Shown piece after piece: positions 1,355-27,562 of a stretch of DNA of 36,825 bases. Each line of letters starts with the position of its first letter. The first letter of the stretch is position 1. Position numbers and translations under genes: made by a program. The notes beneath the pieces were generated by a model. It worked only from the letters and a program-made list of their open reading frames with translations, did no database searches and had not been told where the DNA came from. The stretch covers positions 1 through 36,825 of the IMG/VR virus record IMGVR_UViG_3300004461_000463; one strand, written 5' to 3'. Source of the DNA: a virus.

Positions 1355-1362
1355 TATATTTG
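1355..1362 (+). promoter_or_regulatory. Bacteroidota-type -7 box TATATTTG, 5 nt before ATG
   Basis: TATATTTG matches the Bacteroidota -7 consensus TAnnTTTG and is separated from the ATG at 1368 by exactly five bases (TCACC). With the usual start-point distance, the transcript would begin at or within a few bases of the start codon. A -33 TTTG is not clear. The same geometry recurs at 9882, 15298 and 27289. Confidence 0.7.
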
Positions 1363-1367
1363 TCACC

Positions 1368-1520
1368 ATGCACAGTCTAGAACAATACCAATTTTTAAGA
1401 GTCCAAGTTAAGATGAAGAACCCTGACTGGGATGACCAACAGATTAACGAGGAGTGTCAAAGAATCGTAAATGGATTTTATGATGACGATGGTGAGGATT
1501 GTCTATACTGTGGCAGCTAA
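1368..1520 (+). CDS. Small acidic protein (50 residues), probably leaderless
   Basis: ATG at 1368 to TAA at 1520. The product starts MHSLEQYQFLRVQVKMKNPDW and ends with a DDDGEDCLYCGS tail, so it carries an acidic stretch and a terminal CxxC pair that could bind metal or form a disulphide. It is the first rightward gene after the control region. The start is supported by the TATATTTG box five bases upstream, a spacing shared by three other starts in the window. Function is unknown. Small genes in this position often encode early host-takeover or regulatory factors, but nothing in the sequence proves that here. Confidence 0.65.
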   Translation: MHSLEQYQFLRVQVKMKNPDWDDQQINEECQRIVNGFYDDDGEDCLYCGS

Positions 1521-1538
1521 ACGAAATAAACGAAACCT

Positions 1539-1694
1539 ATGAAATTTAGAGCAACCAAAAGAAAGATGAAGCTTACCCAGAGAATTGGGGTGGACTTCAA
1601 GTTCGTAAGACCAGAAAGTAAATTGTGGTGGGAATTGTACTTAAGCATATATTTGTACAACACATCATTTAGAGTAACATTAGAAAAGCATTAA
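1539..1694 (+). CDS. Small basic protein (51 residues)
   Basis: ATG at 1539 to TAA at 1694, 18 bases after the preceding gene. The N-terminal third is strongly basic (MKFRATKRKMKLTQR), followed by an aromatic stretch (KLWWELYLSIYLYN). It might bind nucleic acid or associate with membranes; neither can be shown. It lies between two other small genes in one direction, so it is probably cotranscribed. A TATATTTG word at 1648-1655, inside its coding region, could serve as a weak internal promoter for the next gene. Confidence 0.55.
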   Translation: MKFRATKRKMKLTQRIGVDFKFVRPESKLWWELYLSIYLYNTSFRVTLEKH

Positions 1695-1699
1695 GATCA

Positions 1700-1834
1700 A
1701 TGGCTAAGCAAACGAATACTACTAGCTTCAATCCAAAACCAAAGAAACAACGTCCTGGAATTCACAGTAAGAAAAAAACGTCTAAGTTGAAAACTTCTAA
1801 GTTATACAAGAAGAATTCTGTAGGACAAGGGTAA
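1700..1834 (+). CDS. Small lysine-rich conserved phage protein (44 residues)
   Basis: ATG at 1700, TAA at 1832-1834, five bases after the previous stop. The product is extremely basic and proline-rich near its start (FNPKPKKQRPGIHSKKKTSK) and ends KLYKKNSVGQG. I recognise this pattern (PKKxRPGxHxKxKxSKLKxSKxYKKxxxGQG) as a short protein found in many Bacteroidota and marine tailed phages, with no function known to me. The charge suggests DNA or RNA binding or a virion-packaged peptide, which is inference. It directly precedes the dyad-flanked promoter at 1844. Confidence 0.7.
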   Translation: MAKQTNTTSFNPKPKKQRPGIHSKKKTSKLKTSKLYKKNSVGQG

Positions 1835-1843
1835 CAAAATTAT

Positions 1844-1875
1844 TATATTTGCATCTGCAACCGTATTCCAATACG
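1844..1875 (+). promoter_or_regulatory. Promoter TATATTTG with two adjacent operator-like dyads
   Basis: The -7 box TATATTTG lies at 1844-1851. Overlapping its end is the dyad TTGCA-TC-TGCAA (1849-1860), followed at once by a second dyad CGTATT-CC-AATACG (1862-1875), so both would cover the expected transcription start. The 13-mer TTATATTTGCATC is identical at the promoter before the GroES-like gene (5868-5880). A -33 box is weak (TTCTG at 1816-1820). It would drive the fibre/lysis unit through a long leader. Confidence 0.65.
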
Positions 1876-2110
1876 ATCACCCCTGAGGTAACCAAAGTAG
1901 GGGGTCAGAAGTTGGGTTCTATTCTTATCACAATAGTTAAGAAAAGTTGTCCCCAATAGTTGCAAAAATTGAATTGATATAGGATACTGGGGAGGGTTAA
2001 AACTATAGGCTGACAGAAATGTTCCTCCGAAGGCTAAAGACGGCAGTAATCTGAAAGTCAATTTTAAACACAAAAATCACCAAGGGGATAACTATGTCTA
2101 AGAATTTGAC
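1876..2110 (+). other. Untranslated, possibly structured leader upstream of the fibre/lysis unit
   Basis: No convincing gene fills 1835-2136. After the promoter at 1844 about 240 transcribed bases precede the next gene. They hold short stems, including ACCCC (1879-1883) with GGGGT (1901-1905) and a CCTCCGAAGG hairpin near 2022-2031. A 19-codon frame (ATG at 2094, TAA at 2151-2153) overlaps the next start and could be a leader peptide, but is more likely chance. This may be a regulatory 5' untranslated region or a separate small RNA. I do not recognise a known RNA family. Confidence 0.4.
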
Positions 2111-2118
2111 TATCTTTG
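2111..2118 (+). promoter_or_regulatory. Possible -7 box TATCTTTG before the 2137 gene
   Basis: TATCTTTG fits TAnnTTTG exactly and lies 18 bases before the ATG at 2137. No TTTG -33 element is seen at the normal distance. It could add a second, short-leader start for the fibre/lysis unit. Confidence 0.4.
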
Positions 2119-2136
2119 AATCTAAATTCAATACAA

Positions 2137-2367
2137 ATGCCAACTTATCTTAAGACTGGAATTTATCAACCTCCTTTTACTAAGTTAGAAGAGGAGGCCG
2201 AGCAAGCTGTAGTTTATATTGATGAGAATGTTATCCAAGTTTTAAATGCTGACGATGACTTAATCATTCAGTTTACCTATGAAGAGTTACGAGGGATAAT
2301 GGCTGTAATGGCTGCAGAGCAAGAGAAGTCACATTTGTATATACAGGCTAGAACTAAACTTAATTAA
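2137..2367 (+). CDS. Unknown 76-residue protein upstream of the tail fibre
   Basis: The frame is open from a TTG at 2116, but the ATG at 2137 (MPTYLKTGIYQPPF) is preferred because TATCTTTG occupies 2111-2118 and would place transcription initiation downstream of the TTG. The product is acidic, with a predicted beta then helix pattern (AEQAVVYIDENVIQVLNADD, then EELRGIMAVMAAEQEK). Its TAA overlaps the ATG of the tail-fibre gene (TAATG), so translation is probably coupled. The position suggests a tail-fibre accessory or baseplate protein. I do not recognise the family. Confidence 0.75.
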   Translation: MPTYLKTGIYQPPFTKLEEEAEQAVVYIDENVIQVLNADDDLIIQFTYEELRGIMAVMAAEQEKSHLYIQARTKLN

Positions 2368-4223
2368 TGGATACTTATAACCCTAGTAAACTTACTGCTA
2401 AACCCATCAAGTCAGATCTAACTCTTAGACAGTTAGCTGACTTTGATGAGTCTGGTGGTAGTAGAGATAGGGTTGATAATGTTAGAAGTAACCAAGTTTT
2501 AGTATCTCTCTCGAACATAAATCGTCCACAAACTTTTAGCTTTAGATACATCTCAGATCTTATCAAAGGTGGTACGGGGATAGAATCGTCTACTAAAGAT
2601 GGGGTTACAACTATCTCAAACTCAGGGGTTACTAAAATTATAGCTGGAACTAACATAACTATTTCCCCAGTTACTGGAGTTGGGAACGTTACAGTTAATG
2701 CTGCTAGTGGGGGAATAACTTCTTTAAACCTTTTAACTGCAGCAGCTCAAACATTTGTTAACGATACAAACGTATCAATAGTTTCTTCAGGGACAACTCA
2801 CACGTTAACTTGGCTTGGTACTTTAGCTGATTCAAGAATTGCATCGGCTGCTACTTGGAATGCAAAGTTTACATTGCCAGCTTTAACAAGCGGAAGCGTT
2901 CTATTTAGTGATGGAACAACCATAGCGCAGAACAACACTAACTTCTTTTGGGATAATACAAATAGTAGATTGGGGGTTGGAACGAATACGCTTAATGCAA
3001 AAACTTCAATTGTTTCAACTACAGCATTAACTGGTTTATACGTTGAAAATTTAGGTTCAGCTACTTCACCATCTGCGGTATTTAAGAATAATCAAAATAC
3101 CTCTTATGCTTCTGTTGATATTATAGGTGGTAGTTTTATTACCAATTCAAATAAATTTCAATTTGGGCAATACTCAACAGGCGATGCGTTTTTCTTTTTA
3201 GTTGGAAATAATCTCTTAGATTTCTTTACTAATTCAGTTAATAGAATGCGCATATTCGGTAATGGTAACATAACCATCGGCACAATAACAGACTCAGGAT
3301 ACAAGCTCGATGTGAATGGAACGGCGAGGGTTGCTTTAAAACTTTCAGTTGGAACTCCAAGTGCTGCATCTGCTTTAATGGAAGTTACTTCAACTACATT
3401 AGGTTTCCTTCCTCCTCGCATGACCACAACGCAAAAGAACGCTATTGCTTCTCCAGCAAGTGGGCTTGTAGTTTATGACAACACTCTTAATGCAACAAAC
3501 TATTACAACGGTACATCTTGGGTAGATAGGGGATCAGACATTGAAGCAGGGAAAAAAGTGCTTTCATTCTTTACTGACTTTTTAGCAAATAATGCCTTAG
3601 ATGGATTGCAAACATTTACTTCTGGTGGAAGTGCTGGTACTGTGGGAGGTACGTTAATTCCGGGAAGAACAAATCAACAAGGAGTTATTTTTATGCAAAC
3701 AGGAGTAGTTGCAACTAACTATATATTTTATTCAAGCGGAACAGTTCAGTTATGGTTAGGAGGTGGCGCATGGAACTATGAGACATTTATTTATATTAAT
3801 AACTTAAGCACATTAACAGATAGATATAGATTGATATTTGGATTTGGTTCGGGTACTACAAACTCCACAGAAACCGATGGAGTATTTCTTACTTATGATG
3901 AAGGAGGAACTGCTAACGGAACAGCGTCTTCTGCAAATTGGCAATGTGTAACAGTTCAAAATAGCACACGAACTTTAACTACTACAACAACTGCTGTAGT
4001 TGCTGCGGCATGGCTTAAATTAAGAATTGAAATTAATGCAGCAGGAACATCAGTAGCATTTTATTTAAATGGAACTTTACTTGCTACACATACAACAAAT
4101 ATACCTGTACCAAATAGATATATACTTATTAAACAAGGTATAGCTAAAACTATAGGAACAACATCTTTAGGATTTTATTGTGACTATATAGGATATGAAA
4201 ACATCTTAACAACACCACGATGA
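2367..4223 (+). CDS. Tail fibre / receptor-binding protein (618 residues)
   Basis: The N-terminal third is a Gly/Thr/Ser/Asn-rich fibre shaft with the repeat style of phage fibres (IIAGTNITISP, SDGTTIAQNN, NSRLGVGTNT). Around residues 348-385 comes FLPPRMTTTQKNAIASP, followed by GLVVYD and YYNGTSWVDRG. This motif is very common in fibres and prophage adhesins of Bacteroidota. Residues from about 395 to the end form a new domain, probably a beta-sandwich (YETFIYINNLS, LKLRIEINAAG, VAFYLNGTLLATH), resembling concanavalin/LamG-type carbohydrate-binding folds. It probably binds a surface glycan of the host; that is inference. Its stop overlaps the start of the 41-residue gene that follows, and the lysis genes come next, a common arrangement in tailed phages. 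Confidence 0.85.
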   Translation: MDTYNPSKLTAKPIKSDLTLRQLADFDESGGSRDRVDNVRSNQVLVSLSNINRPQTFSFRYISDLIKGGTGIESSTKDGVTTISNSGVTKIIAGTNITISPVTGVGNVTVNAASGGITSLNLLTAAAQTFVNDTNVSIVSSGTTHTLTWLGTLADSRIASAATWNAKFTLPALTSGSVLFSDGTTIAQNNTNFFWDNTNSRLGVGTNTLNAKTSIVSTTALTGLYVENLGSATSPSAVFKNNQNTSYASVDIIGGSFITNSNKFQFGQYSTGDAFFFLVGNNLLDFFTNSVNRMRIFGNGNITIGTITDSGYKLDVNGTARVALKLSVGTPSAASALMEVTSTTLGFLPPRMTTTQKNAIASPASGLVVYDNTLNATNYYNGTSWVDRGSDIEAGKKVLSFFTDFLANNALDGLQTFTSGGSAGTVGGTLIPGRTNQQGVIFMQTGVVATNYIFYSSGTVQLWLGGGAWNYETFIYINNLSTLTDRYRLIFGFGSGTTNSTETDGVFLTYDEGGTANGTASSANWQCVTVQNSTRTLTTTTTAVVAAAWLKLRIEINAAGTSVAFYLNGTLLATHTTNIPVPNRYILIKQGIAKTIGTTSLGFYCDYIGYENILTTPR

Positions 4224-4345
4224 TACTAACTAAATACAGAATGATAACCGAAAATGGTTACATAGAAACACTAGATGAGCAAGAAGCTATTATCTTTGGA
4301 GATTATATAGTGGTTCAAGAAGAAATACCAGACGAAAATTTATAA
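4220..4345 (+). CDS. Small protein after the tail fibre (41 residues)
   Basis: ATG at 4220 overlaps the fibre stop (ATGA); TAA at 4343-4345. The product is MILTKYRMITENGYIETLDE then a short acidic helix and IFGDYIVVQEEIPDENL. Small acidic proteins directly downstream of fibres are frequently fibre-assembly chaperones or spike-tip proteins. That role is suggested by position only. The stop-start overlap and the next start two bases downstream support real translation as part of the operon. Confidence 0.65.
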   Translation: MILTKYRMITENGYIETLDEQEAIIFGDYIVVQEEIPDENL

Positions 4346-4346
4346 T

Positions 4347-4892
4347 ATGAAAAAATACAGTTACGTAGAATTAGAAAACAAGTTCAAAGAACTTGGATAC
4401 CAATGGCCAACCTTACACCTTGTTGGAGTAAGATCTAAGGCTAATGAAAAGGACAAGTTTGATGATCAGATGTATTTGATCAACGGTCCTATGCAACAGA
4501 TATTTACCTGTACTACAAATCCAGGTACACACTGGCTAAAGAATTTGCTAAATCCTAAAGGAACTGCAGTTCTTAAACCAGGACAATATGTCGACAGTTG
4601 GAAACTTGGAATGCATCAAGGTAAATACAAAGCTTTAGTACAAGCTAAACCTATTACTGTTTATCGTGACAACAACAAAAACGACTTAGCTGAAGAAAAT
4701 GGTAAAGAGGATACTGGAATGTTTGGTATCAACATACACCATGCTAATGCATCAGCCATTAGTTCAATAATCGATAAATGGAGTGCAGGTTGTCAAGTGT
4801 TAAATAATCCCGAACAGTTCAAAACATTGCTTAGCTCTTGTGAGACATCAGGCAGAAATGCATTTACTTACACTTTACTTAGAGAATTCTAA
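4347..4892 (+). CDS. L,D-transpeptidase-like lysis enzyme (181 residues)
   Basis: The core resembles the YkuD/L,D-transpeptidase-like fold found in some phage lysis genes: FGINIHHAN with His131/His132, then IIDKWSAGCQVL with the Ser-Ala-Gly-Cys motif and candidate nucleophile Cys149. In classical L,D-transpeptidases the pattern is His ... SHGCxR; here Ala replaces the second His and Gln follows the Cys, so the match is to a divergent branch and catalysis is uncertain. No signal peptide is seen; a holin is therefore needed, and a holin-like gene starts at its stop codon (TAATG). Role: probable endolysin acting on peptidoglycan at the end of infection. An alternative is a virion-borne wall-modifying enzyme. 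Confidence 0.65.
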   Translation: MKKYSYVELENKFKELGYQWPTLHLVGVRSKANEKDKFDDQMYLINGPMQQIFTCTTNPGTHWLKNLLNPKGTAVLKPGQYVDSWKLGMHQGKYKALVQAKPITVYRDNNKNDLAEENGKEDTGMFGINIHHANASAISSIIDKWSAGCQVLNNPEQFKTLLSSCETSGRNAFTYTLLREF

Positions 4893-5845: not shown

Positions 5846-5887
5846 TTTGCTTATATAAGATTCCTTGTTATATTTGCATCAAGCAAA
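5846..5887 (+). promoter_or_regulatory. Full Bacteroidota promoter (TTTG-N19-TATATTTG) with dyad, before the GroES-like gene
   Basis: TTTG at 5846-5849 and TATATTTG at 5869-5876 are separated by 19 bases, fitting the Bacteroidota -33/-7 arrangement. A dyad TTTGC-ATCAA-GCAAA spans 5873-5887, over the expected start point, and the 13-mer at 5868-5880 is identical to one at 1843-1855. It gives the GroES-like gene a leader of about 15-20 bases. Confidence 0.85.
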
Positions 5888-5898: not shown

Positions 5899-6174
5899 AT
5901 GGAAAATTTAAATTTTGAACCAACCCGTGACTGGTTGGTAGTCCCAAAACCGGACAAAAAAGTAACAGATGCAGGTATCATCTTATCAGATCGATCAGCA
6001 TCAGCACTTCGTTCTAACGTACTTCCAGTACTAGCTGCAGGCCCAGATTGCAAATGCAAAGTTGGGGATGTAGTTTACATTCACCCATCTAGTGATGGAG
6101 TAATCGTTGAGTTAAATGACTCAGAGTACGTTATGATTAATGAATCAATGGCAGTTCTTGGGATAGTAAAATGA
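5899..6174 (+). CDS. GroES-like co-chaperonin (91 residues)
   Basis: The length and pattern are those of Cpn10/GroES: FEPTRDWLVVPKPDKKVTDA matches the first strand and the start of the mobile loop, GIILSDRSAS the loop end and following strand, then VLPVLAAGPD, VGDVVYI (the conserved GD-V turn, residues 56-60) and a final YVMINESMAVLGIV strand. Phage GroES homologues such as T4 gp31 cap the host GroEL and help fold the major capsid protein. The same role is likely here because the gene stands just before the packaging and capsid genes. It has its own strong promoter and its stop overlaps the next start (ATGA). Confidence 0.85.
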   Translation: MENLNFEPTRDWLVVPKPDKKVTDAGIILSDRSASALRSNVLPVLAAGPDCKCKVGDVVYIHPSSDGVIVELNDSEYVMINESMAVLGIVK

Positions 6175-7375: not shown

Positions 7376-7847
7376 TAATGTAGTCATACCATCAGTGTAT
7401 GCTATGACTATTCCAGAGTTTGAGAAACTTACTATCAAAGAATTAAGTTTTGTATTCTTTTATGCTGACCACAGATCAAACTATGCAGCATATGACGATG
7501 AAGAACGTCAAGCAAAGTTAGTGGAAGACTTAAAAGTAGTAATTACCCCAAAATTAGCAGGGGCTGTAAAGAAATATCAAGAGCTAGGAGAAACCCATGG
7601 GATAAAACTGTTACGAGCAGGCAGGTCTTCAGTAAACAAGCTTGAGAAATACTTCAAAGACATAGACTTAACTGCTATGGATGACAATGGTAAGTTGCTA
7701 TATCAAGCAAAAGACTTACTATCAAACCTATCTAAAATTGGAGAAGTGATTGAAGGGCTAGACAGGCTAGAAGAACTAGTTCAAAAACAACAAGCTAAAG
7801 ATAACCCTAACAGAGCAGGTGTAAAAACTAACAAATACAGTGAGTAA
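7350..7847 (+). CDS. Unknown 165-residue protein upstream of TerL; small-terminase candidate by position
   Basis: ATG at 7350 overlaps the HU-like gene, and the last codons overlap the GTG start of the large terminase. The product is mostly helical: FEKLTIKELSFVFFYADHRS, YDDEERQAKLVEDLKVV, a basic patch (GIKLLRAGRSSVNKLEKYF) and a C-terminal coiled-coil-like run (GEVIEGLDRLEELVQKQQAK). A gene of this size translationally coupled to TerL is where a small terminase subunit normally sits, and an oligomerising helical domain would fit. No helix-turn-helix is obvious and the family is not one I can name with certainty. Confidence 0.75.
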   Translation: MKDLLTVNNNVVIPSVYAMTIPEFEKLTIKELSFVFFYADHRSNYAAYDDEERQAKLVEDLKVVITPKLAGAVKKYQELGETHGIKLLRAGRSSVNKLEKYFKDIDLTAMDDNGKLLYQAKDLLSNLSKIGEVIEGLDRLEELVQKQQAKDNPNRAGVKTNKYSE

Positions 7848-9813
7848 ACTTAAAGACACACATTTATTTGCTGCAGCTGCAAGTCATTATATTGAGTATG
7901 GCTACTACACTGCTGCACTTCCTGGTACAAAACAATACTACGAGTACTGGGACCAAGAACAGCATAGATGCATGCAAGGACTTGAAATTAACGGGATAAA
8001 AATATCTGGGTTTCATTATTTTTACTTAAATTATTGTCCAATAGATAGGATTATAGATGAAGAACAACCTGATGGTGAAATCATGTCACGTCGTGACCGA
8101 AGCTTTCCAGCATTTTACGATGGTGACTACGAGTACTTTAACTCAATTGACAAAGCCCGTAAAGAAAACAAACATCTCGTTGTACTTAAGGCCCGTCGAA
8201 AGGGATTCTCCTACAAAGCTGCAGCTATGCTTTGCCGTAACTATTTCCATATTCGTAATTCTAAGAATTTTGTATTTGCTTCTGATAAGCAATACTTAAT
8301 TGGGGATGGAATGCTTTCAAAAGCTTGGGACATTGTATCATTTGTAGATGACAACACAGCTTGGAGCCAACCTAGGCTTATCGACCGAGAAATGCACAAG
8401 CAATCTGGGTACAAAAAGAATGTAAATGGAGCCGACGTTACCTTAGGCTTTAAATCACAAATAATTGGAGTATCCTTAAAGGATGACCCAGATAAAATCC
8501 GTGGTAAAGCAGGTGAACTAATCTTTTTTGAAGAGGCAGGATCTTTTGCAGGCTTATTAAAAGCTTGGGAGGTAGCAATGCCTACAATGAGACAAGGTTC
8601 TAAAACACTCGGAACAATGGTTGCTTTTGGAACAGGTGGAGAAGAGGGACCAGGCTTTGAAGGTATGGAAGAATTGTTCTATCACCCCGAAGCTTATGAC
8701 TGTTTACCGTTTGAGAACGATTGGGATGCTGGTGCCATGGGAACACACTGTGGTTATTTCGTTCCTATCTACAAAAACTTAGATGGGTTCATTGACAAAG
8801 ACGGAAACAGCTTAATTGACGAAGCAATAGAGTACGAAGAAAGTCAAAGAGAAAAGAAAAAGAAAGGTAACGACCCAAAGGCATTTGACCAGTACATAGC
8901 AGAGATGCCGTTTACTCCACAAGAGGCTACACTTCAAGTTACAGCAAATACATTTGACGTATCATCTTTAAAAGAACAGTACAACAGAGTAATTGCTAAC
9001 GATCTTCAAAAGATTGGGGTAGCAGGTGAAATGTACTACGATAGTAAAGGTAAAGTTAGTTTTAGGCCTGACTTTAATCTTAAACCCATTGTTAAGTTCC
9101 CACATAGAAAGGATGATAACTTAACCGGGGCCATTGTTGTATACGAGCCTCCATATAAAACAGAGATTGAAGATATCATCCCAAAAAATTTATACATAGT
9201 ATGCCATGACCCGTATGCCCAAGGAAAATCTGCATCAGCTACATCTCTTGGTGCAGCATATGTTATTAAAGTCCCGAACAACATTTCTAAGCCTGATGAT
9301 ATCATTGTGGCTTCGTATGTCGGAAGGCCTCAGACCCAAGATGACTACAATAGAAATCTATTTATGCTGGCTGAATACTACAATGCAAAGATCGGGTTTG
9401 AGAATGACCGAGGTGAGGTTATTGCCTATGCCAAACGATTTAGAAAAATGCATGTACTTCAAGAGGAGTTCGAAATGCTGGATAAAAAAGATCTTAGAAG
9501 TAAAACAGTAAAACGACAATACGGTATGCACATGACCGAACAGAGAAAAGCCCAAGGGGAATTGTATATCAGAGACTGGTTAGTTAGTGGGAGAGGGGCC
9601 AACGAGGATGGTGACATAACTCTCAATATGCACAAGATTTATGACCCAGCTTTACTTTTGGAATTAATCAAATTTAACAGAAATGGTAACTTTGACCGAG
9701 CTATGGCATTCATGATTGGAATGTATCACACACGAGAGTTATACAATAAGGAACTTAAGTTTGATGACCATGACAACTCCAAGAATGATTGGTTTGAGAA
9801 AAATTACAGTTAA
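7840..9813 (+). CDS. terL: Terminase large subunit (657 residues, GTG start)
   Basis: The packaging motor ATPase/nuclease. The ATPase half shows a Walker A-like LKARRKGFSYK (near residues 116-126) and a Walker B GELIFFEEAG (residues 225-234). The nuclease half shows the first metal-binding Asp in YIVCHDPYAQGKS (Asp457), the second acidic site in GFENDRGEV (Glu521/Asp523) and a third in FDRAMAFMIG (near residue 618). The length is normal for the crAss-like branch. The start is a GTG that overlaps the upstream stop, with no in-frame ATG near it. It docks on the portal encoded by the next gene. Confidence 0.95.
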   Translation: MSKLKDTHLFAAAASHYIEYGYYTAALPGTKQYYEYWDQEQHRCMQGLEINGIKISGFHYFYLNYCPIDRIIDEEQPDGEIMSRRDRSFPAFYDGDYEYFNSIDKARKENKHLVVLKARRKGFSYKAAAMLCRNYFHIRNSKNFVFASDKQYLIGDGMLSKAWDIVSFVDDNTAWSQPRLIDREMHKQSGYKKNVNGADVTLGFKSQIIGVSLKDDPDKIRGKAGELIFFEEAGSFAGLLKAWEVAMPTMRQGSKTLGTMVAFGTGGEEGPGFEGMEELFYHPEAYDCLPFENDWDAGAMGTHCGYFVPIYKNLDGFIDKDGNSLIDEAIEYEESQREKKKKGNDPKAFDQYIAEMPFTPQEATLQVTANTFDVSSLKEQYNRVIANDLQKIGVAGEMYYDSKGKVSFRPDFNLKPIVKFPHRKDDNLTGAIVVYEPPYKTEIEDIIPKNLYIVCHDPYAQGKSASATSLGAAYVIKVPNNISKPDDIIVASYVGRPQTQDDYNRNLFMLAEYYNAKIGFENDRGEVIAYAKRFRKMHVLQEEFEMLDKKDLRSKTVKRQYGMHMTEQRKAQGELYIRDWLVSGRGANEDGDITLNMHKIYDPALLLELIKFNRNGNFDRAMAFMIGMYHTRELYNKELKFDDHDNSKNDWFEKNYS

Positions 9814-9852: not shown

Positions 9853-9889
9853 TATCTTTATAGCCGTAAGTAAAACGACACTAATTTTG
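9853..9889 (+). promoter_or_regulatory. Promoter region of the portal gene: TATCTTTA and TAATTTTG, the latter 5 nt before ATG
   Basis: TAATTTTG at 9882-9889 fits TAnnTTTG and is exactly five bases (TATTA) before the portal ATG. TATCTTTA at 9853-9860 lies upstream and is part of an 11-mer TATCTTTATAG also found just after the capsid-gene terminator (17949-17959). It may serve as a -33-like element or as a second, weaker -7 box. The 81-base gap between terminase and portal holds no gene. Confidence 0.6.
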
Positions 9890-9894: not shown

Positions 9895-12108
9895 ATGTAC
9901 GGACAAGCCCATATCCCAAAACAACGAATCCCATTATCTCAAAAAGATGAGAAGTGGCAGAAGAACTGTGTAGATGCATTTATCAATCTTTCTAAGTTTG
10001 GTATTAGTGAACGTCGTACATATCTTAAGTCTCTTTACGATTATTACAATGGTGTAATTGACGAAGAGGATTACAACTACGTATTGAAACCTTATGGAAA
10101 GACTAGAAAAAACTTTCCATCTAAGATGAGGAACTATCCTATCATTAAGCCTATCATTGACTTGTTGCTTGGGGAAAAATCTAAACGAGCTTTTGAATTT
10201 ACTGTTACAGTTCAGAATTCTGATTCAATCAGCATTAAAGAAGAAAAACTTAGAAATCTTTTACTTACAAATGTTAAATCAAAATTCTTAAGTGAATTAG
10301 CTAAGCAAGGGCAACTACCTCAGGGAATGGAAGCTGAAGAGCCGCCACTCCCAAAGCAAATTCAAGAAGAATTCAATAGAAGTTATACAGATAGTAGAGC
10401 AATTAAAGGGCAAGCAGCTCTTAATTACATAATGTATTTTACAGAATTTTACGATAAACTTCAAAAACAATTTTTCCATTTTTTAGTAACTGGAGAATGT
10501 TATTCACACAAAGGAGTACGTCGTAATGAACCCTTCTACGAAGTTATTAATCCATTAGACATTGACTTTGATAAAGATCCAGACATCGACTTTGTAGAAG
10601 ATGGAGACTGGGCTATACTTAGAAAGTATGCACATGCCTCTACAATCATAGACAACCTTGGAGACTATTTAACTGATGATCAAATTCTTCAGTTAGAGAC
10701 TCCTACACATACAGCAGCACAAGCATATTTGCTTTATCGTGCAGAAGCAGCTGGGGCAGATGATAATATTTATCGTAACCGTCTCGTAGAAGTTGTAACA
10801 GTATATTGGAAATCAAGAAAAAGAATTGGATTTGTTACATACATGGATCCAAATACAGGAACTGAAGAGACATTTGAAGTAGAAGAAACTTACAAACTCC
10901 CAAAAGAATTAAAAGAAATTGGGGCTAAGATGGAATGGGAATGGGTTAATGAAGTTTGGGAGGGCACACGTATTGATGGACTTTATTACATCAAAATGAG
11001 ACCGTATCAAAACCAAAGAAACAGTTTAGATAATCCATCGATTTGTAAACTTCCAATTAATGGAAGAAAATACTCAGACATCAACTCACAAAACGTGTCG
11101 TTGATTAGCCTTGGTATCCCATATCAGCTTAATTACAATATCTATAAATACCGTCTTGAATTAGCAATTGCTAGAAGTAAAGATATCATAGCTCAGTTTG
11201 ATATTAACATGATCCCTAAGAACTGGGACATGGATAAGTTTATGCACTATGTAGAGGGTACAGGTATTGCTTGGGTTGACTACAACAAAGAAGGGATTCA
11301 ATTGTCCCCTCAACACCAGTCAGTATTAGATATGTCAATTAAGACCATATCACAATATTTAACTCTCCTTGAATCTATCATGTTAGAATGGGAAAAACTT
11401 TCCGGGGTAACTAGACAGAGACAAGGGCAAATGGGAACATATGAGGGAAAGGCCACATCACAGCAATCCATTGTTCAATCTTCTCACATTACTGAAGACA
11501 TCTTCCGTAAGTTTTCTAACTTTGAGCAGAGAGAATTACAGGGTCTACTTGACTATTCGAAAGAAGCTTGGCTTAACGGTAAAAAAAGCACGTACGTAAT
11601 GCCTGATGGTACTATTGATGAATTAGATATAGATTCAATGACTCACATGGAAAGTGAGTACGGAATTTTTGTATCAGATGCAGGTAAAGATCTTGATAAA
11701 AAACAAAAAATCGAAGGGTTGGCTCAAGCAGCTGTTCAAAACGGTCTCCCACTTTCTGCAGCAATTGCTATTTACGAATCAGATAGTTTAAGTCAAATTA
11801 AAGATAAAATTATTCAAGCTGAAAAAGCTCAAGAGGAACTTAAACAAGCACAAGATCAAGCACTGCAGCAACAAGAACAAGCTAAAGTTCAAATGCAGCA
11901 GCAAATTGCACAACAAGCTTCTCTTGACAAAGAAAAAGACCGTCAACTTCAAATTGAAGTGGCATTAATTGGAGCAGAAGCTGCCGATAAATCATCCAGT
12001 GCATCGTTAGAAAAAATGATGCAAGATTTTCAAATTAAACAACAAGAAATAGCTTTAAAAGAAAGGGACTTAGATATTAAAGCTGGTTCACAAATTACAA
12101 AAGAATGA
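9895..12108 (+). CDS. Portal protein, crAss-like (737 residues)
   Basis: The N-terminal part carries the pattern I associate with crAss-like portals: YDYYNGVIDEEDYNYVLKPY, then NYPIIKPIIDLLLGEKSKR. The middle holds the clip/wing region (EVINPLDIDFDKDPD) and the stem/crown region around GVTRQRQGQMGTYEGKATSQ. The last 100 residues are a Gln-rich coiled coil (QALQQQEQAKVQMQQQIAQQ) typical of the barrel/crown extension. It forms the dodecameric ring at the packaging vertex, bound by terminase during filling and later by the connector rings encoded downstream. It has its own promoter box, and its stop overlaps the next start (ATGA). Confidence 0.92.
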   Translation: MYGQAHIPKQRIPLSQKDEKWQKNCVDAFINLSKFGISERRTYLKSLYDYYNGVIDEEDYNYVLKPYGKTRKNFPSKMRNYPIIKPIIDLLLGEKSKRAFEFTVTVQNSDSISIKEEKLRNLLLTNVKSKFLSELAKQGQLPQGMEAEEPPLPKQIQEEFNRSYTDSRAIKGQAALNYIMYFTEFYDKLQKQFFHFLVTGECYSHKGVRRNEPFYEVINPLDIDFDKDPDIDFVEDGDWAILRKYAHASTIIDNLGDYLTDDQILQLETPTHTAAQAYLLYRAEAAGADDNIYRNRLVEVVTVYWKSRKRIGFVTYMDPNTGTEETFEVEETYKLPKELKEIGAKMEWEWVNEVWEGTRIDGLYYIKMRPYQNQRNSLDNPSICKLPINGRKYSDINSQNVSLISLGIPYQLNYNIYKYRLELAIARSKDIIAQFDINMIPKNWDMDKFMHYVEGTGIAWVDYNKEGIQLSPQHQSVLDMSIKTISQYLTLLESIMLEWEKLSGVTRQRQGQMGTYEGKATSQQSIVQSSHITEDIFRKFSNFEQRELQGLLDYSKEAWLNGKKSTYVMPDGTIDELDIDSMTHMESEYGIFVSDAGKDLDKKQKIEGLAQAAVQNGLPLSAAIAIYESDSLSQIKDKIIQAEKAQEELKQAQDQALQQQEQAKVQMQQQIAQQASLDKEKDRQLQIEVALIGAEAADKSSSASLEKMMQDFQIKQQEIALKERDLDIKAGSQITKE

Positions 12109-12530
12109 AGTACATGGATAAAGTAAGTTCAGCTAAAAGTAAAGTAACCGTACCTGGACTAGTAGTAGAATTAATGGATGCAGCACTTAAATTCCACATT
12201 CTACATTTAACAATCACAGGGCCTGGTTCTTTTGCTGCTCATAAAGCACTTAACGAATTGTATGATGAACTTCCTGATTTAGCTGATACAGTTGCAGAAA
12301 GCTATCAAGGTGCAACTGGAGAGATCCCAAACTATCCTGCAGATATGCCATCAAATGTATGTGCTCCTGTAATGACTTCTGTTAAAGAAGCACTTAGCTA
12401 TATTGAAGAACTTCATAATAAAGTTTCTAAACTACAAGATACTGTAACTTACTCAGAAATTAACAATGAGTTAGACAACGTTAAAACGACTTTAAACTCG
12501 GCTAAGTATAAGCTTAAATTCTTGTCATAA
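12105..12530 (+). CDS. Dps/ferritin-like protein with complete ferroxidase ligands (141 residues)
   Basis: The segment from residue 30 to 68 (LHLTITGPGSFAAH, then ELYDELPDLADTVAES) reads like the first two helices of Dps. The spacing of the four ligands is exactly that of the Dps intersubunit iron site: His34, His46 (+12), Asp61 (+15) and Glu65 (+4), as in E. coli Dps His51, His63, Asp78 and Glu82. The C-terminal half forms further helices (ALSYIEELHNKVSKLQD). It resembles small ferritin-like phage families of unknown role. Placed between portal and virion peptidase genes, it may be a packaged or DNA-associated protein. Possible roles include protection of DNA from iron and peroxide or a purely structural one. 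The start is the ATG overlapping the portal stop. Confidence 0.65.
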   Translation: MKYMDKVSSAKSKVTVPGLVVELMDAALKFHILHLTITGPGSFAAHKALNELYDELPDLADTVAESYQGATGEIPNYPADMPSNVCAPVMTSVKEALSYIEELHNKVSKLQDTVTYSEINNELDNVKTTLNSAKYKLKFLS

Positions 12531-15297: not shown

Positions 15298-15305
15298 TAC
15301 CTTTG
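15298..15305 (+). promoter_or_regulatory. -7 box TACCTTTG, 5 nt before the scaffold ATG
   Basis: TACCTTTG fits TAnnTTTG and is separated from the ATG at 15311 by TATCT, exactly five bases. TTTG at 15279-15282 is upstream with a 15-base spacer, shorter than usual. It would give a leaderless or nearly leaderless mRNA for scaffold and capsid protein. Confidence 0.65.
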
Positions 15306-15310: not shown

Positions 15311-16447
15311 ATGAGTAAACCAAACGACAAATTAGATTTCTCAGACATCTCTTTCGACGATTTTATAGGAGATGGACTTGAGGCAGCTAATCCAAAAGAG
15401 GATAAAGCTGAAAATATTGACAATGATGACGATCTTGAAGATCAAGATGAAGACATCGATGATAATAACGAAGATGATGCTGATGACGATGAGGACAACA
15501 ATCCTGCACCTCGTAAGTCATCTACTAAAAAAGGAGTCTTTGATGATTCTGATGATGATGTAGATGATGAAGAAGACGAGGATGATGGTGAAGGTTCTAT
15601 CACAGATTCAATTGCAAAAGCTTTAGGCTACGAATTAGAAAAAGATTATGCTGATACCGAGGAAGGATTAGCAGAGTTTACTAAAGACGTTGCTAAAGAG
15701 ATTGCAGAAGATCAACTTCAAGCATTGTTTGAGCAGTTCCCTACAGTGCAAAAACATCTTGACTTTGTACTAGCTGGTGGAGATCCTGATAAGTTCTTTC
15801 AAACCTACAACCCATCAATGGATTATGGGCAAATTGAAATGGACAAAGATGACGCTAGAACTCAAAAAGGATTTTTAACTGAATACTTAAGAGAAAAGGG
15901 GCATGATGATGATTTCATCAAAGATATGATTGAGGATTATGAAGACTCTGGCAAATTATATGACAGAGCTTTAAATGCACAAAAACATCTTGCTGCTGGT
16001 CAAGCTAAAGAAAGAGAAGAAATTGTAGCTCGTCAAAGAGAGGCACAAAAACAACAACAACAACAAACTGAAGAGTTTTGGGAGAGTGTTGCAACTACAA
16101 TCGAGCAAGGAAAAGAATTTGCTGGGATTAAAATTCCAGACCGTGAGAAAGCAAAGTTCTTTGACTACATCTCTAAACCTGTAGATAAGCAAGGACGTAC
16201 TAAAAGAGACGTTGACTATGCTTCTGCAGAAATGGATGCTAAGTTAGCATTGGACTACTTGATGTATAAGAAGCTTGAGTTGAGTGATATTATCTCAACT
16301 AAAGTTAAATCAGCAAGTGCACAAAACTTAAGACAAAAAATTCAAAGCAATCAAGAAAGAGTAAAGAATTTCGGAAAGGCTGAGAAAGGGAAAATAAAAA
16401 CATTTGATCCAGACCAACTGGATGTAAAGAGGCTGTTTGAAAAATAA
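15311..16447 (+). CDS. Capsid scaffolding protein (378 residues)
   Basis: The N-terminal 95 residues are extraordinarily acidic (runs such as DDDLEDQDEDIDDNNEDD). Then comes a helical body (SITDSIAKALGYELEKDYAD), a Gln-rich charged helix (REAQKQQQQQTEEFWESVAT), and a basic C-terminal segment (LRQKIQSNQERVKNFGKAEK) ending FDPDQLDVKRLFEK. Extreme acidity, high helix content, a basic C-terminus that can touch the capsid protein, and position immediately upstream of the capsid gene are the standard marks of a scaffold. It acts inside the procapsid and is removed before or during packaging. A leaderless-type promoter box precedes it. Confidence 0.85.
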   Translation: MSKPNDKLDFSDISFDDFIGDGLEAANPKEDKAENIDNDDDLEDQDEDIDDNNEDDADDDEDNNPAPRKSSTKKGVFDDSDDDVDDEEDEDDGEGSITDSIAKALGYELEKDYADTEEGLAEFTKDVAKEIAEDQLQALFEQFPTVQKHLDFVLAGGDPDKFFQTYNPSMDYGQIEMDKDDARTQKGFLTEYLREKGHDDDFIKDMIEDYEDSGKLYDRALNAQKHLAAGQAKEREEIVARQREAQKQQQQQTEEFWESVATTIEQGKEFAGIKIPDREKAKFFDYISKPVDKQGRTKRDVDYASAEMDAKLALDYLMYKKLELSDIISTKVKSASAQNLRQKIQSNQERVKNFGKAEKGKIKTFDPDQLDVKRLFEK

Positions 16448-16475: not shown

Positions 16476-17897
16476 ATGTCAGTAATGCAAGTTTTAAAGA
16501 CGTACTATAACGATAGTCAGATGACCGATACTAACTCATTGGTTAATGCACTTATGGAACGTCCAGAGGAGTTATCTCCTATTATCACTCACCTAGCCGG
16601 TCGTGAAGAGAAAAAGTTCCCATTATCTTTCTTAACAGAAGGTGTTGGAAACACTAAATCTATCGATCGTTTCGAGTATGAGTACCGTGTTAAAACACAC
16701 GAAATTAATGTTCGTCCTGTTGTTGTAGGATTGGCCGCAGCTGCTGGTGCAGGTGGAGCTCCTTTCTACTTAACTTTCCCAGACAAATGGTTCGTATTCC
16801 CTTACACTCTTGTTTCTCAATCAGGTGTATTGGCACGTATCATGGCTGAGCCAGTTGCAGACGGTGCAGGTTGGAAATACACTCTAAGAATTGTATCTCC
16901 TGACACTGCTAACGTTCCTGCTAACGATGTAGCTGCTGGTGCTCTTTGGGGTCAATTGTATGCTAACGTTGGAGTGGATTTCTCTCGTGGAAATGCTTCT
17001 AACTGGACTGCTCCAGGTTTAGTTCGTTCTAAAATTGGAACTATCCGTAAATCTTATCACTTCTCTGGAAATGCTAAAGATTACGTTGCACAATTCGAAC
17101 TTCCTTTGAAAGAAGGTAGCAAGACTAAATTGTGGATGGATTACGAAGAGTACCGTCACATGTTGAAGTTCAAAGAAGAGTGTGAAATGTACTACTGGTA
17201 CGGTCAGAAAACTCACGATGCATCTGGTGTTTCTACCATGTTGGATGAGAATGGTCAGCCAGTTATTTCAGGTCCTGGTCTTCTTGAGCAAATCATCAAC
17301 AAAGACACTTACTCTACGTTGACTCAAACTAAACTTGAAGAAACAATTGGAGATTTGTTCTATGGTATGACTGATGCTACAGACAAGCAAGTTACCCTTT
17401 ACACTGGTATTGGTGGAGCTCGTGAGTTTGACAAAGCTCTTAAGTCTTACTATGGTAGCAATATTTTCTTACAAACTACTCAACCATACTTCATCACTGG
17501 ATCTGGTCGTAACTTGGGAATTACCGGTTACTTCACTAGCTACCAACACGTTGATGGTTACCAAGTAAATGTAGTGAAGTCTCACTTGTTTGACCACGGT
17601 CCTGTTGCTCAAGCTTCTCAAAAGCACCCAGTATCAGGTCTTCCACTTGAATCTTACCGTATGGTATTCGTTGACCAGTCAACTTATGACGGAGAAAACA
17701 ACTTACAAATGATCAATAAAAAAGGTCGTGAGTTACTTCGTTGGTGTGTTGCTGGTTCAGTAGTTCCTAAAGGATTTACTTCCAACGATAGCCGTGCTAG
17801 TGATATAGACGGTGCTTCTGTTCATATGCTTAAGACTGCTGGTATCTTACTTCGTCGTTTCGATACAAGCTTGGATCTTAAGTGTATTGCATCGTAA
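16476..17897 (+). CDS. Major capsid protein, crAss-like HK97-fold type (473 residues)
   Basis: The length, position after the scaffold and composition fit the crAss-like major capsid protein. Recognisable stretches are the N-terminal helix (MSVMQVLKTYYNDSQMTDTN), HLAGREEKKFPLSFLTEG, KIGTIRKSYHFSGNAKDY, MDYEEYRHMLKFKEECEMYY and HPVSGLPLESYRMVFVDQ. No maturation-protease gene or prohead-cleavage site is evident. Codon use is markedly different from most neighbours: arginine is nearly always CGT where other genes use AGA, a sign of very high expression. A perfect-looking terminator follows 20 bases after the stop, so capsid mRNA probably ends there. Confidence 0.9.
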   Translation: MSVMQVLKTYYNDSQMTDTNSLVNALMERPEELSPIITHLAGREEKKFPLSFLTEGVGNTKSIDRFEYEYRVKTHEINVRPVVVGLAAAAGAGGAPFYLTFPDKWFVFPYTLVSQSGVLARIMAEPVADGAGWKYTLRIVSPDTANVPANDVAAGALWGQLYANVGVDFSRGNASNWTAPGLVRSKIGTIRKSYHFSGNAKDYVAQFELPLKEGSKTKLWMDYEEYRHMLKFKEECEMYYWYGQKTHDASGVSTMLDENGQPVISGPGLLEQIINKDTYSTLTQTKLEETIGDLFYGMTDATDKQVTLYTGIGGAREFDKALKSYYGSNIFLQTTQPYFITGSGRNLGITGYFTSYQHVDGYQVNVVKSHLFDHGPVAQASQKHPVSGLPLESYRMVFVDQSTYDGENNLQMINKKGRELLRWCVAGSVVPKGFTSNDSRASDIDGASVHMLKTAGILLRRFDTSLDLKCIAS

Positions 17898-23541: not shown

Positions 23542-23571
23542 TAAATAAGTAAAAACCAAAAACAAATAGTT

Positions 23572-24006: not shown

Positions 24007-24007
24007 C

Positions 24008-24304: not shown

Positions 24305-24306
24305 TG

Positions 24307-24873
24307 ATGGGGACAATAATTACTAAACCTGGAGGAAGTTCTGGTCCTACTACTTTAACATTTGGAGGAAATCTTAGCTTTCAAGTAGGTAGTGAATCAT
24401 ATGCTTATAATACAGCAACAGCTCTTACTAGAGTTTATGTTACACCAACCCCTGTTTTTGCTACAGTTGGTAGAAATTTTTGGATTGATATTTCAATCCA
24501 AACTGGTAACTATGCAGGTCCTCCATATAGTACAAGTAATTTTTCAGTTAAGCTATATGCTTCTGCTAATGGAGTTACTCTTAATACACTTTTAGGCACA
24601 TATACAGTTCCGGTTACCGCAGCTAATACTGTCTATAAAATGCAAAGAACATTTTTTACAGGAAGTATACTAGATTCTGAGGGTGGTGATGAGTACTTTG
24701 TATTTGGAGTAGATGCTGCAACTAGTTTAAATTCTGATAGTCTGATTTCAAGTTTTACTTATGTTAATTCTATAGGAGCCTTTGGTGTTTCGTATCCCTA
24801 TCTTGTGGTAGCAGTTCAAGCAGGTGCAGCAAATGTTTATAGATTAGGTCCATCAAGAATTACATACGGATAA
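24307..24873 (+). CDS. Beta-sandwich virion protein, first of a paralogous pair (188 residues)
   Basis: Two ATGs occur in tandem (24304, 24307). The second is preferred because it gives MGTIIT, the same opening as the next gene. The body is a low-charge beta pattern (FWIDISIQTGNYAGPPYSTS, FSVKLYASANGVTLNTLLGT, PYLVVAVQAGAANVYRLGPS) consistent with a jelly-roll or carbohydrate-binding fold. The C-terminal strand VVAVQAGAAN corresponds to VIAIQNGNAAD in the neighbour. Probably a receptor-binding or decoration protein attached by its conserved N-terminus. Function is inferred from context and composition only. Confidence 0.7.
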   Translation: MGTIITKPGGSSGPTTLTFGGNLSFQVGSESYAYNTATALTRVYVTPTPVFATVGRNFWIDISIQTGNYAGPPYSTSNFSVKLYASANGVTLNTLLGTYTVPVTAANTVYKMQRTFFTGSILDSEGGDEYFVFGVDAATSLNSDSLISSFTYVNSIGAFGVSYPYLVVAVQAGAANVYRLGPSRITYG

Positions 24874-24876
24874 AAA

Positions 24877-25407
24877 ATGGGGACAATAATAACTATAATA
24901 AGTCCTCCTACACCATCAACAGGTGGAATCGTAGGAGCCGTTGTACTAGGAAATTCTGTAACAGGTAGCACTACAAACACAGCTGCTGGGAATTTGTTAA
25001 TTCCAGCTGATACTATAACTCCTACTATAACTTCTACTTTAGAAATTAGAGGTAGGATGTTTAAAACTGGTGTTGCAGGAAACTGTACTATGAGAATGTA
25101 TTTTAATATAACTCCTGATTTAACAGGGACTCCTGTACTATTAGGAACTCACACATCTTCTGCTGCTAATATCCATGCTCAGTTGGTTAGACAAGTATAT
25201 ATTGATAAAACTAACACTATAGTTCTTGCTGCATCTCAAAATGCAAACACAGATGACATTGAAAATGCAGCTGGTAGAACTGTAATTGTCAATGCAGGAA
25301 ATATTGATTATGCAGCTGATTTGTATTTAGTTATAGCTATTCAAAATGGAAATGCAGCTGATAGCTCTCTTCCAACACTTTGGTATACAAAAACACACGG
25401 ATATTAA
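24877..25407 (+). CDS. Beta-sandwich virion protein, second of a paralogous pair (176 residues)
   Basis: Starts three bases after the previous stop with MGTIITIISPPTPSTGG. Its first 19 coding bases differ from the first paralogue at one position, yet the bodies have diverged strongly: here TSTLEIRGRMFKTGVAGNCT, MRMYFNITPDLTGTPVLLGT, and YLVIAIQNGNAADSSLPTLW. The shared order of strands (a MRM or KLY strand, LLGT turn, then VAVQ or VIAIQ near the end) supports common descent. A conserved attachment end plus a variable body is typical of exchangeable receptor-binding modules. Its stop overlaps the phosphoesterase start (TAATG). Confidence 0.7.
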   Translation: MGTIITIISPPTPSTGGIVGAVVLGNSVTGSTTNTAAGNLLIPADTITPTITSTLEIRGRMFKTGVAGNCTMRMYFNITPDLTGTPVLLGTHTSSAANIHAQLVRQVYIDKTNTIVLAASQNANTDDIENAAGRTVIVNAGNIDYAADLYLVIAIQNGNAADSSLPTLWYTKTHGY

Positions 25408-26567
25408 TGACACTACTAGAACTAACCCAAACATTAACGGCTAGACCATGGTTCTTAAAGAAAGGACCTGCACTAGTAGCTAGAAAATTTAAAGTTAGTT
25501 TGCACGATGCTACTGCAGCATTAAAAATTGCAAGAGCAAAAAGTAGAGAAGTTAACAGAAAAGTTGTAAAAGTAGAAACACTTGAAAACGATTCTGACAA
25601 TGTTATTACAGAGTTTGAACAGTATTTAGATAAAAACGGGATTGATCACTCAATGGTCAATTCCGTTAAATACTGGCAAAACATGAGAGGAGAGCAACGG
25701 TTCTCTGTAGTTACCAAAAATGATAGGTCGGCAGAAGAGATTCAAAAAGACATTGAAGAATTTGCAGCAAGTTATAGCCCTAGAACTAGAGTTATAACTA
25801 AAGGCAGAGGAGTTGACTATAAAGTGAAGTCAACTTTAGAAATCTCTTTACCTGACATTCACTATGGAAAGTTAACAGATATTACCTTAGAAGAAATGGA
25901 GAAACAATTCCTTGATACAATCGAGGATTTGGTTAACAAAGGTCGAGGAATAAATATCGAAAAGATTCTTCTCCCAATCGGAAACGATGGTATGAATACA
26001 GACGGCATGAGAATGGCTACAACAAAAGGCACACCTCAACACGATACTGTAGGATGGAAAGAATCATTCAAAGGATACTGGACTCTAATAGTTAGAGCAG
26101 TAGATTTCTTAAAAGATGTGGCTCCCGTTGATATAATTGTTGTATCGGGAAACCACGACTACGAGAGAATGTTTTATGCTGGGGATGTCCTGGCCGGGTG
26201 GTACCGAAATGACCCAAACGTCACTGTAGATAATTCTACAATGCCAAGAAAATATTACAAGTACGGGAAAAACATGATAATGTTTACCCACGGAGATAAC
26301 GAAAAACCTTCAGATATGCCACTAATAATGGCCACTGAACAACCGGAAATGTTTGCAGCAACTGAGTTTAGAGAAGCTCATTGTGGACATTACCATAAAG
26401 AACAGGTAAACGAATACCGAGGTGTTAAGGTGAGATTTCTTCCTTCAATATGTGCATTAGATGAATGGCATAAAAAGATGGGATATCAATCACTCAGGGC
26501 AGCTCAGGCATTTATTTGGAATCACGACGAAGGACTTGAAGGATATTTACAAAGCAATGTTAGATAA
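25407..26567 (+). CDS. Calcineurin-like metallophosphoesterase with N-terminal helical domain (386 residues)
   Basis: The ATG at 25407 overlaps the previous stop; a longer frame from 25380 would overlap that gene needlessly. All metal-binding blocks of the family are present in order: LPDIHYGKL (Asp150, His152), GNDGMNT (Asn193, Asp194), SGNHDYER (Asn249-Asp251), FTHGDNE, and CGHYHKE (His328, His330). Two metal ions would activate water to cleave a phosphodiester or phosphomonoester. Substrate is unknown; family members include nucleases (Mre11/SbcD-like), 2',3'-cyclic phosphodiesterases and phosphatases. The first ~55 residues (PALVARKFKVSLHDATAALK) look like a small helix-turn-helix, favouring a nucleic-acid substrate. 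It sits oddly among virion genes. Confidence 0.9.
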   Translation: MTLLELTQTLTARPWFLKKGPALVARKFKVSLHDATAALKIARAKSREVNRKVVKVETLENDSDNVITEFEQYLDKNGIDHSMVNSVKYWQNMRGEQRFSVVTKNDRSAEEIQKDIEEFAASYSPRTRVITKGRGVDYKVKSTLEISLPDIHYGKLTDITLEEMEKQFLDTIEDLVNKGRGINIEKILLPIGNDGMNTDGMRMATTKGTPQHDTVGWKESFKGYWTLIVRAVDFLKDVAPVDIIVVSGNHDYERMFYAGDVLAGWYRNDPNVTVDNSTMPRKYYKYGKNMIMFTHGDNEKPSDMPLIMATEQPEMFAATEFREAHCGHYHKEQVNEYRGVKVRFLPSICALDEWHKKMGYQSLRAAQAFIWNHDEGLEGYLQSNVR

Positions 26568-26578
26568 AATACAGAAAG

Positions 26579-27277
26579 ATGACTTTAGATGAAATTTCAT
26601 TTAACCTTTTAAATCTATTTAGAGGTGGACGTAGCTCTCAGGATGAAGTAATCCCGTTAGCTCAAATTAAATTTAACGTTAAGCACTATCGTGCTGTATT
26701 TATACGTAGAGACTATGCAAGAAATGGTCTAGTAACTCGTCATTTAGAACAAGATTTAAAATGTGTACAATTAGAGAAAGTAGATCTTTCTAAATGCTGT
26801 AATATCAATTTAGATTGCCCTGCTTACCGTAGCAAAAAGAAAATCCCAAGAACAGTAAGATTTAACTTTGAAGAAGCTATCACCTATGTAGGGGATGTAT
26901 CAGGATTAGGAAGAATTCAGATGATTAAAGCATTTGAAGCTAATTACATCTCAGCTGAAAAATTTACCAAAAACAATACTAAGGCCTTTATGATTGAAGA
27001 CTATTTATACGTCCTCAACCCAAAAGGTGCTGATTACGTTAACGTACGTGGAATATTCGAAGACCCAGAAGAGGTTGCAGAATTCATCGACTGTGCAGGG
27101 CAACCTTGTTATTCAGGTTCTGATATCTTCCCAATGCCTATGGATATGGTTCAAGGCATTACTCAAGGAATGATGCAAGGAGAATTAAGATTATTAGCTG
27201 GAACATTCACAGATACTACTCTTGATCGTGGGCAAGATTTATCTCCAAGTGCTCCACAACAATCTTCAAAAGAATAA
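26579..27277 (+). CDS. Putative tail/connector structural protein (232 residues)
   Basis: The start MTLDEISFNLLNLFRGGRSS, then QIKFNVKHYRAVFIRRDYAR, is a pattern I recall for a conserved virion protein of crAss-like phages. The central part includes TYVGDVSGLGRIQMIKAFEA, a strand-rich segment (KAFMIEDYLYVLNPKGADYV), and the C-terminus FPMPMDMVQGITQGMMQGEL, a helix found at the end of several phage ring or tail adaptors. It likely forms part of the connector between portal and tail. It ends 25 bases before the next start, which has its own promoter box. Confidence 0.75.
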   Translation: MTLDEISFNLLNLFRGGRSSQDEVIPLAQIKFNVKHYRAVFIRRDYARNGLVTRHLEQDLKCVQLEKVDLSKCCNINLDCPAYRSKKKIPRTVRFNFEEAITYVGDVSGLGRIQMIKAFEANYISAEKFTKNNTKAFMIEDYLYVLNPKGADYVNVRGIFEDPEEVAEFIDCAGQPCYSGSDIFPMPMDMVQGITQGMMQGELRLLAGTFTDTTLDRGQDLSPSAPQQSSKE

Positions 27278-27288
27278 CAATTTTTAAC

Positions 27289-27296
27289 TAACTTTG
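27289..27296 (+). promoter_or_regulatory. -7 box TAACTTTG, 5 nt before ATG
   Basis: TAACTTTG fits TAnnTTTG; TGACT (five bases) separates it from the ATG at 27302. A GTG at 27296 could extend the reading frame by two codons but would overlap the box, so ATG is preferred. No clear -33 box. Confidence 0.65.
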
Positions 27297-27301
27297 TGAC
27301 T

Positions 27302-27562
27302 ATGGCAGCTTGGGAAAACAAATCAGGTAAAAATCCAAAAGGAGGATTGAACGAAAAAGGCAGAAAGTCTTACGAAAGTCAACACCCTGGCTCTAACTTA
27401 AAAGCTCCTCAACCTAAAGGTGGTAGCAGGAGAAACTCATTCTGCTCTAGAATGTGTGGAATGAAAGCCAAACTTACTAGCTCTAAAACAGCAAACGATC
27501 CTCAATCAAGAATTAACAAATCACTTAGAATCTGGAACTGTGGAAGTTGCAGTAACTGGTAA
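27302..27562 (+). CDS. Small basic conserved phage protein, DUF6321-like (86 residues)
   Basis: The opening AAWENKSGKNPKGGLNEKGR, SYESQHPGSNLKAPQPKGGS and RRNSFCSRMCGMKAKLTSSK follow a pattern known from many tailed phages (W..K.GKNP.GGLN.KGR.SY...PGS.LKAP ... R..SF..RM.GM). I believe this is the family catalogued as DUF6321, a name given from memory. Function is unknown. It is rich in Gly, Lys and Asn, probably flexible, and may be a virion-packaged peptide. The unusual C-terminus (WNCGSCSNW) adds a CxxC pair. The start is set by the promoter box five bases upstream. Confidence 0.75.
   Translation: MAAWENKSGKNPKGGLNEKGRKSYESQHPGSNLKAPQPKGGSRRNSFCSRMCGMKAKLTSSKTANDPQSRINKSLRIWNCGSCSNW

Follow-up and report, generated by a model that had tools for sequence, protein, structure and literature searches.

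Bacteroidota use no Shine-Dalgarno sites and, mostly, no leaderless mRNAs. Leaders of Bacteroidota hosts are mostly 20–35 nt long (PMC6847099, PMC7366714, PMC9723704), and mRNAs with a very short leader or none are rare: their share is 5.5% in F. psychrophilum and 3.7% (<10 nt) in B. thetaiotaomicron (PMC7366714, PMC9723704). Transcripts of F. johnsoniae begin 4–5 nt past the -7 box, whose two N positions avoid G, and the -33 element is barely discernible there (PMC6847099). According to the account of Sevostyanova (2007) given in a review (PMC3594737), the middle and late transcripts of the lytic Thermus phage phiYS40 are leaderless as a class; the same review reports that, in infected cells, IF2 is up and IF3 is down. 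Promoter boxes that adjoin open reading frames are common in Deinococcus-Thermus, where a box located a few nucleotides before the reading frame, at a specific spacing, acts as a promoter and not as a ribosome-binding site (PMC12340547). In phage crAss001, virion genes are late, and middle and late transcription is thought to use the host polymerase (PMC8375218). Literature searches found no report of leaderless transcripts in crAss-like phages and no map of transcription starts of a Flavobacterium phage.

The window analyzed here, the whole stretch of 36,825 nt, is a fragment of a crAss-like (Crassvirales) phage, as its capsid, ring, portal, and terminase proteins were all matched (Crassvirales matches PF23898, PF24228, PF25702, phrog_6547, and phrog_6681). 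Its genes include those for the terminase large subunit (terL, 7840-9813, phrog_6681), the portal protein (9895..12108, plus strand; phrog_6547, E=3e-123), and a 378-aa protein in the scaffold position (15311..16447, plus strand), the first gene of the capsid operon. The major capsid protein gene (16476..17897, plus strand; PF23898 Crass_capsid, E=7.9e-83) starts 28 nt behind the scaffold-position gene, with which it presumably shares a common mRNA. Ring protein genes were found at 26579 (PF25702) and 28937 (PF24228), along with further structural genes, and a gene for an 86-aa DUF6321 protein at 27302..27562 (plus strand; PF19846, E=6.2e-21). A Pfam search with a conserved 50-aa gene of the control region (1368..1520, plus strand) gave no match, and a Cpn10 (GroES)-like gene (5899..6174, plus strand) matched PF00166 with 22.9 bits (cut-off, 21.1). 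A Dps/ferritin-like gene (PF19174; PF00210 weak) was observed at 12105-12530, between the portal gene and a 901-aa gene. A DNA-level search of phage records with the window did not find near relatives, and a search of bacterial genomes with the portal protein, for a host, found no relatives.

Four gene starts in the window share the pattern TAHHTTTG-N5-ATG (TANNTTTG-N5-ATG), and the four genes concerned are predicted to be leaderless. On the plus strand, five bases separate TATATTTG (1355..1362) from the ATG of the 50-aa gene at 1368, TAATTTTG (9882..9889) from the portal ATG at 9895, TACCTTTG (15298..15305) from the ATG of the scaffold-position gene at 15311, and TAACTTTG (27289..27296) from the ATG of the DUF6321 gene at 27302. 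Boxes, positions, and N5 spacing agreed exactly with the original prediction. Its suggestion that each box opens a new unit fared less well at the last site, where the gene at 27302 encodes the DUF6321 protein and no sign was seen of the membrane block that had been expected. A fifth N5 match, on the minus strand (982-967), was rejected, with only a 9-codon reading frame behind it. The box corresponds to the Bacteroidota sigma-A -7 consensus TAnnTTTG, also in that it avoids G at the N positions. What this phage has in common with Bacteroidota sigma-A promoters is thus the -7 element, and the spacing rule for the transcription start is assumed to carry over; it differs in that its genes place the AUG at the predicted start. 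A precedent for leaderless transcripts as a class in a phage is phiYS40, to which the window phage is unrelated by the genes compared; phiYS40, as described in the review (PMC3594737), differs in having a Thermus host, from a phylum in which leaderless genes are numerous, and another -10 box. The Deinococcus-Thermus promoters have a TANNNT box on host genes throughout the phylum (PMC12340547), in contrast to a Bacteroidota box on a set of phage genes, among hosts that rarely have leaderless genes.

Shuffling was used to estimate how often such sites arise by chance. On both strands, shuffles of the whole window gave a mean of 0.94 N5 matches, and the observed 5 were reached in 0 of 100. When the 60 nt upstream of the 35 gene starts in the window were shuffled, the mean number of genes with a box at a spacing (k) of 4–5 was 0.019, and none of 5000 shuffles reached the observed four, as anticipated by the earlier claim that a fixed spacing is hard to obtain by chance. 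The N5 pattern had a density of 14–18 per Mb in each of four Bacteroidota genomes, only 1.2–2 times its control, as compared with 5 occurrences in the 36.8 kb of the window. A scan of the genome and its relatives for an excess of N5 over N3–N12 had been set beforehand as a refuting test, which the prediction passed. In the window and 15 relative records, with an open reading frame of at least 50 codons after the ATG, TAHHTTTG-Nk-ATG peaked at k=4 (17) and k=5 (41); counts at the other spacings were 1 (k=3), 4 (k=6), 1 (k=7), 4 (k=8), 0 (k=9), 1 (k=10), 7 (k=11), and 0 (k=12), and none up to k=13 exceeded 7. Control boxes, scanned over the same records, gave no spike at k=4–5. A spike at k=50 was rejected, as it came from a single conserved site upstream of genes and from boxes located within coding sequence, and conserved TACTTTTGGATNAATG matches in relatives were discarded on the basis of their coordinates, which place them inside a primase-like coding frame.

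Conservation was examined in relatives collected with the capsid protein (eighty) and by a portal alignment (eighty), and locus counts from these sets are not dereplicated. Counted in this way, portal boxes occurred at spacings of 4 (2 loci), 5 (57), 6 (21), and 7 (6), or 86 loci at k=4–7, with none at k=8–24 and four loci, all of named phages, at 25–33. Scaffold boxes occurred at spacings of 2 (2 loci), 3 (1), 4 (48), 5 (40), and 7 (1), or 92 loci, with none at k=8–14, seven loci at 15–31, and one at 50. The exact box was missing at 30 portal and 5 scaffold loci. A spacing of exactly five, as first proposed, therefore held for all four window sites; in relatives the spacing was mostly 4–5, with a range of 2–7. 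Dereplication by flank left 30 portal and 19 scaffold sites, at which flank conservation was low (0.41 and 0.90 bits per column, respectively). Information content inside the box comes from sites selected for having it, and the locus counts constitute the unconditioned evidence. Spacer letters and flanks varied while the box stayed 2–7 nt from the portal or scaffold ATG, and this conservation extended to scaffold proteins that were about 50% identical, with unrelated flanks. The possibility that the sites are chance matches in an AT-rich genome, combined with shared ancestry of near-identical phages, draws some force from the abundance of TANNTTTG in the window (67 matches vs 51 expected); it was refuted by the gene-start shuffles and by this deep conservation, and its likelihood is negligible.

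A quick portal tree, which has several long branches and of which only the large clade was relied on, showed the short-spacing trait filling one clade of 56 dereplicated phages. In a basal group (L223-L231), portal spacing was short and scaffold spacing, where readable (L225, L226, and L228), was 15–21 nt; the scaffold state required about three changes on this tree. The 50-aa gene had the box at the same spacing in three relatives (G002, G004, and G005). The DUF6321 box was kept in most close relatives and lost in six (L028, L030, L032, L050, L051, and L066). In one subclade (L155-L165), the 5-nt portal spacing was kept with TTTA in place of TTTG, as in TACTTTTA-CACGA-ATG, and this sequence may be a -7 box variant. 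Genomes from the more distant half of the clade retained only about two sites each, chiefly those of portal and scaffold. Of 44 cases from distant (ring-2) relatives, 20 (L166, L168, L169, L175, L181, L184, and others) had the upstream terL frame ending on the same TAA that begins the portal box.

The same box was also found in a leadered arrangement. In the window, TATATTTG at 5869..5876 (plus strand) lies 22 nt before the ATG of the Cpn10-like gene, which serves as a leadered internal control, and the box of this gene was located 15–22 nt upstream in 13 of 13 genomes. In crAss001 and other gut Steigviridae, the orthologous portal and scaffold genes carry the same box, but the boxes of late genes lie 19–35 nt upstream; in crAss001 itself, the distance is 25 nt for the portal gene, 30 nt for gp31, and 19–35 nt for other boxed late genes. 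Leaderless candidates made up 0 of 11 boxed genes in crAss001, 2 of 14 in FpV4, 3 of 7 in phi14:2, and 8 of 15 in relative G004, one of these eight having a doubtful start. The cultured phage phi14:2, which infects Cellulophaga baltica, has its portal box at k=6 and its scaffold box at k=29, while all boxed genes of crAss001, a phage of B. intestinalis, are of the leadered type. Since the N-terminus of the window portal aligns from Met1 with the crAss001 and FpV4 portals, this contrast is not due to misannotated starts. It bears directly on the proposal that TAHHTTTG near the ATG serves translation initiation or binds a regulator, for which a tight distance to the ATG, as would suit ribosome contact, could be cited. 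An identical box 15–35 nt from the ATG in orthologous and neighboring genes, and its match to the published sigma-A -7 consensus down to the avoidance of G, make that proposal very improbable. The leadered copies on the Cpn10-like gene, on the crAss001 portal and scaffold genes, and on the scaffold genes of the basal group indicated that the box is a promoter that can move, and not a translation signal. A -33 TTTG element was not apparent at the dereplicated portal and scaffold sites, which had no fixed TTG upstream of the boxes; this is compatible with a sigma-A promoter, in which the element is not required and which has it only weakly in F. johnsoniae too.

If the start rule of F. johnsoniae is applied, leaders are predicted to be 0–3 nt long. 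At a spacing of 4, transcription would start on the A of the AUG; at a spacing of 5, it would start either there or one base earlier. RNA polymerase usually prefers a purine at the start, and at scaffold sites with a spacing of 5 the base preceding the ATG was always T or C, so that a start on the A of the AUG would be favored. The original prediction that these mRNAs begin at or next to the AUG was thus supported by the spacing statistics, the conservation within the clade, and the published start rule, and was further backed by the leadered copies of the box and by the upstream context of the genes, considered below.

Spacings of ortholog groups, pooled from the gene starts of 23 crAss-like genomes, were bimodal, with 26 at k=3–7, 5 at k=8–13, and 47 at k=14–30. 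Compared with an even spread, the trough at 8–13 had a P of about 1e-5 with respect to the short class and of 0.003 with respect to the long class, which suggests that leaders of about 3–9 nt are selected against. Upstream of ordinary genes the sequence was A-rich, a context of the kind described for F. johnsoniae: the mean A content at -14 to -4 was 0.52 for unboxed genes and 0.57 for leadered boxed genes, as against 0.25 for short-spacing genes, in which T reached 0.53. This A-poor, T-rich stretch results from the promoter box filling it. Start codons at k=4–5 were ATG in 52 cases, TTG in 3, and GTG in none. Such a preference for AUG over GUG and UUG, together with the lack of an upstream ribosome-recruiting context, is the expected look of leaderless genes, in which the upstream stretch would lie outside the mRNA.

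The boxes could also be promoters whose products matter little, the main mRNAs arising by read-through from upstream; short spacing would then reflect genome compaction, and leaderless translation would be minor. Short intergenic gaps and the overlap of the portal box with the terL stop codon in distant relatives speak for this explanation. Within the window, however, the portal box lies in an 81-nt gap after terL and the scaffold box in a 69-nt gap, which left room for a leader; spacings of 8–13 are depleted although they are nearly as space-saving, and the box stands in place of the A-rich context that internal initiation would need. Read-through as the main source of these mRNAs was therefore considered unlikely, although promoters farther upstream could contribute leadered transcripts of these genes as well.

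Box, spacing, conservation, the contrast with leadered promoters, and the altered context together favor, with a probability of about 0.85, the reading that the boxes are sigma-A -7 elements giving leaderless or near-leaderless mRNAs, as a derived clade trait kept by selection. The four TAHHTTTG boxes would be -7 elements recognized by the housekeeping sigma factor of Bacteroidota (sigma-A-Bfr type), at which RNA polymerase, presumably that of the host, would initiate on the first base of the AUG or no more than about 1–3 nt from it. The mRNAs of the portal gene, the 50-aa gene, the scaffold-capsid operon, and the DUF6321-tail segment would thus have no leader or almost none, and ribosomes would start on a 5'-terminal AUG and not via the A-rich upstream context of other genes. 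The architecture would be a derived trait of one large environmental crAss-like clade, with selection acting on the distance between box and AUG and with a possible regulatory benefit. Different from the precedents are the Bacteroidota setting, the gene-by-gene contrast of leadered and leaderless orthologues, and the spacing gap.

Several virion operon starts qualified as leaderless candidates. In relative G004, short spacing was found for the portal, scaffold, DUF6321, and 50-aa genes, for a 162-aa gene, for a 2366-aa gene that is related to gp47, an RNA polymerase subunit of crAss001, and whose operon continues to the catalytic subunit, and for a 1578-aa gene related to phi14:2 g065. In relatives, virion RNA polymerase subunit genes would likewise be leaderless. 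Three other relatives had a primase-like gene in the class, with a CHC2 zinc-finger match below the curated cut-off. The class is therefore mainly, and not purely, one of virion genes: the late class proposed earlier has to be widened to the primase-like gene and the 50-aa control-region gene, which is not a virion gene, while the Cpn10-like gene, another operon start, is leadered. Tentatively, and with slightly less than even odds, a shift of one promoter box in this clade may have turned leadered virion genes, among them those for packaged RNA polymerase subunits, into leaderless ones. Each genome would then have two translation modes, with leader lengths between them depleted, and late virion synthesis would depend on ribosomes and initiation factors that favor 5'-terminal AUGs, in a phylum in which leaderless translation is almost unstudied. 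These genes bear on how Bacteroidota ribosomes choose starts; leadered and leaderless orthologues within one phage group offer a natural, directly testable comparison, and their occurrence suggests that translation from 5'-terminal AUGs works well enough in the hosts to produce capsids. The box rule should also help to correct annotated start codons and to locate promoters in crAss-like phages that have not been cultured.

A few other features of the window were observed. Inverted repeats TGTCACAAA..TTTGTGACA and GGTAACAA..TTTGTCACC at 1100-1140 and 1335-1368 straddle the TAAATTTG and TATATTTG boxes of the control region and, judged by sequence, resemble operators that overlap -7 elements; in relative G005, GTAACAA..TTTGTTAC stands in the corresponding place. 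At 1835-1851, in a stretch with no obvious gene start, two -7 boxes, TAATTTTG (minus strand) and TATATTTG (plus strand), are divergent and almost touch. At 885-945, in the control region, an imperfect direct repeat of the type TTTAAGTACA occurs three times at intervals of about 25 bases.
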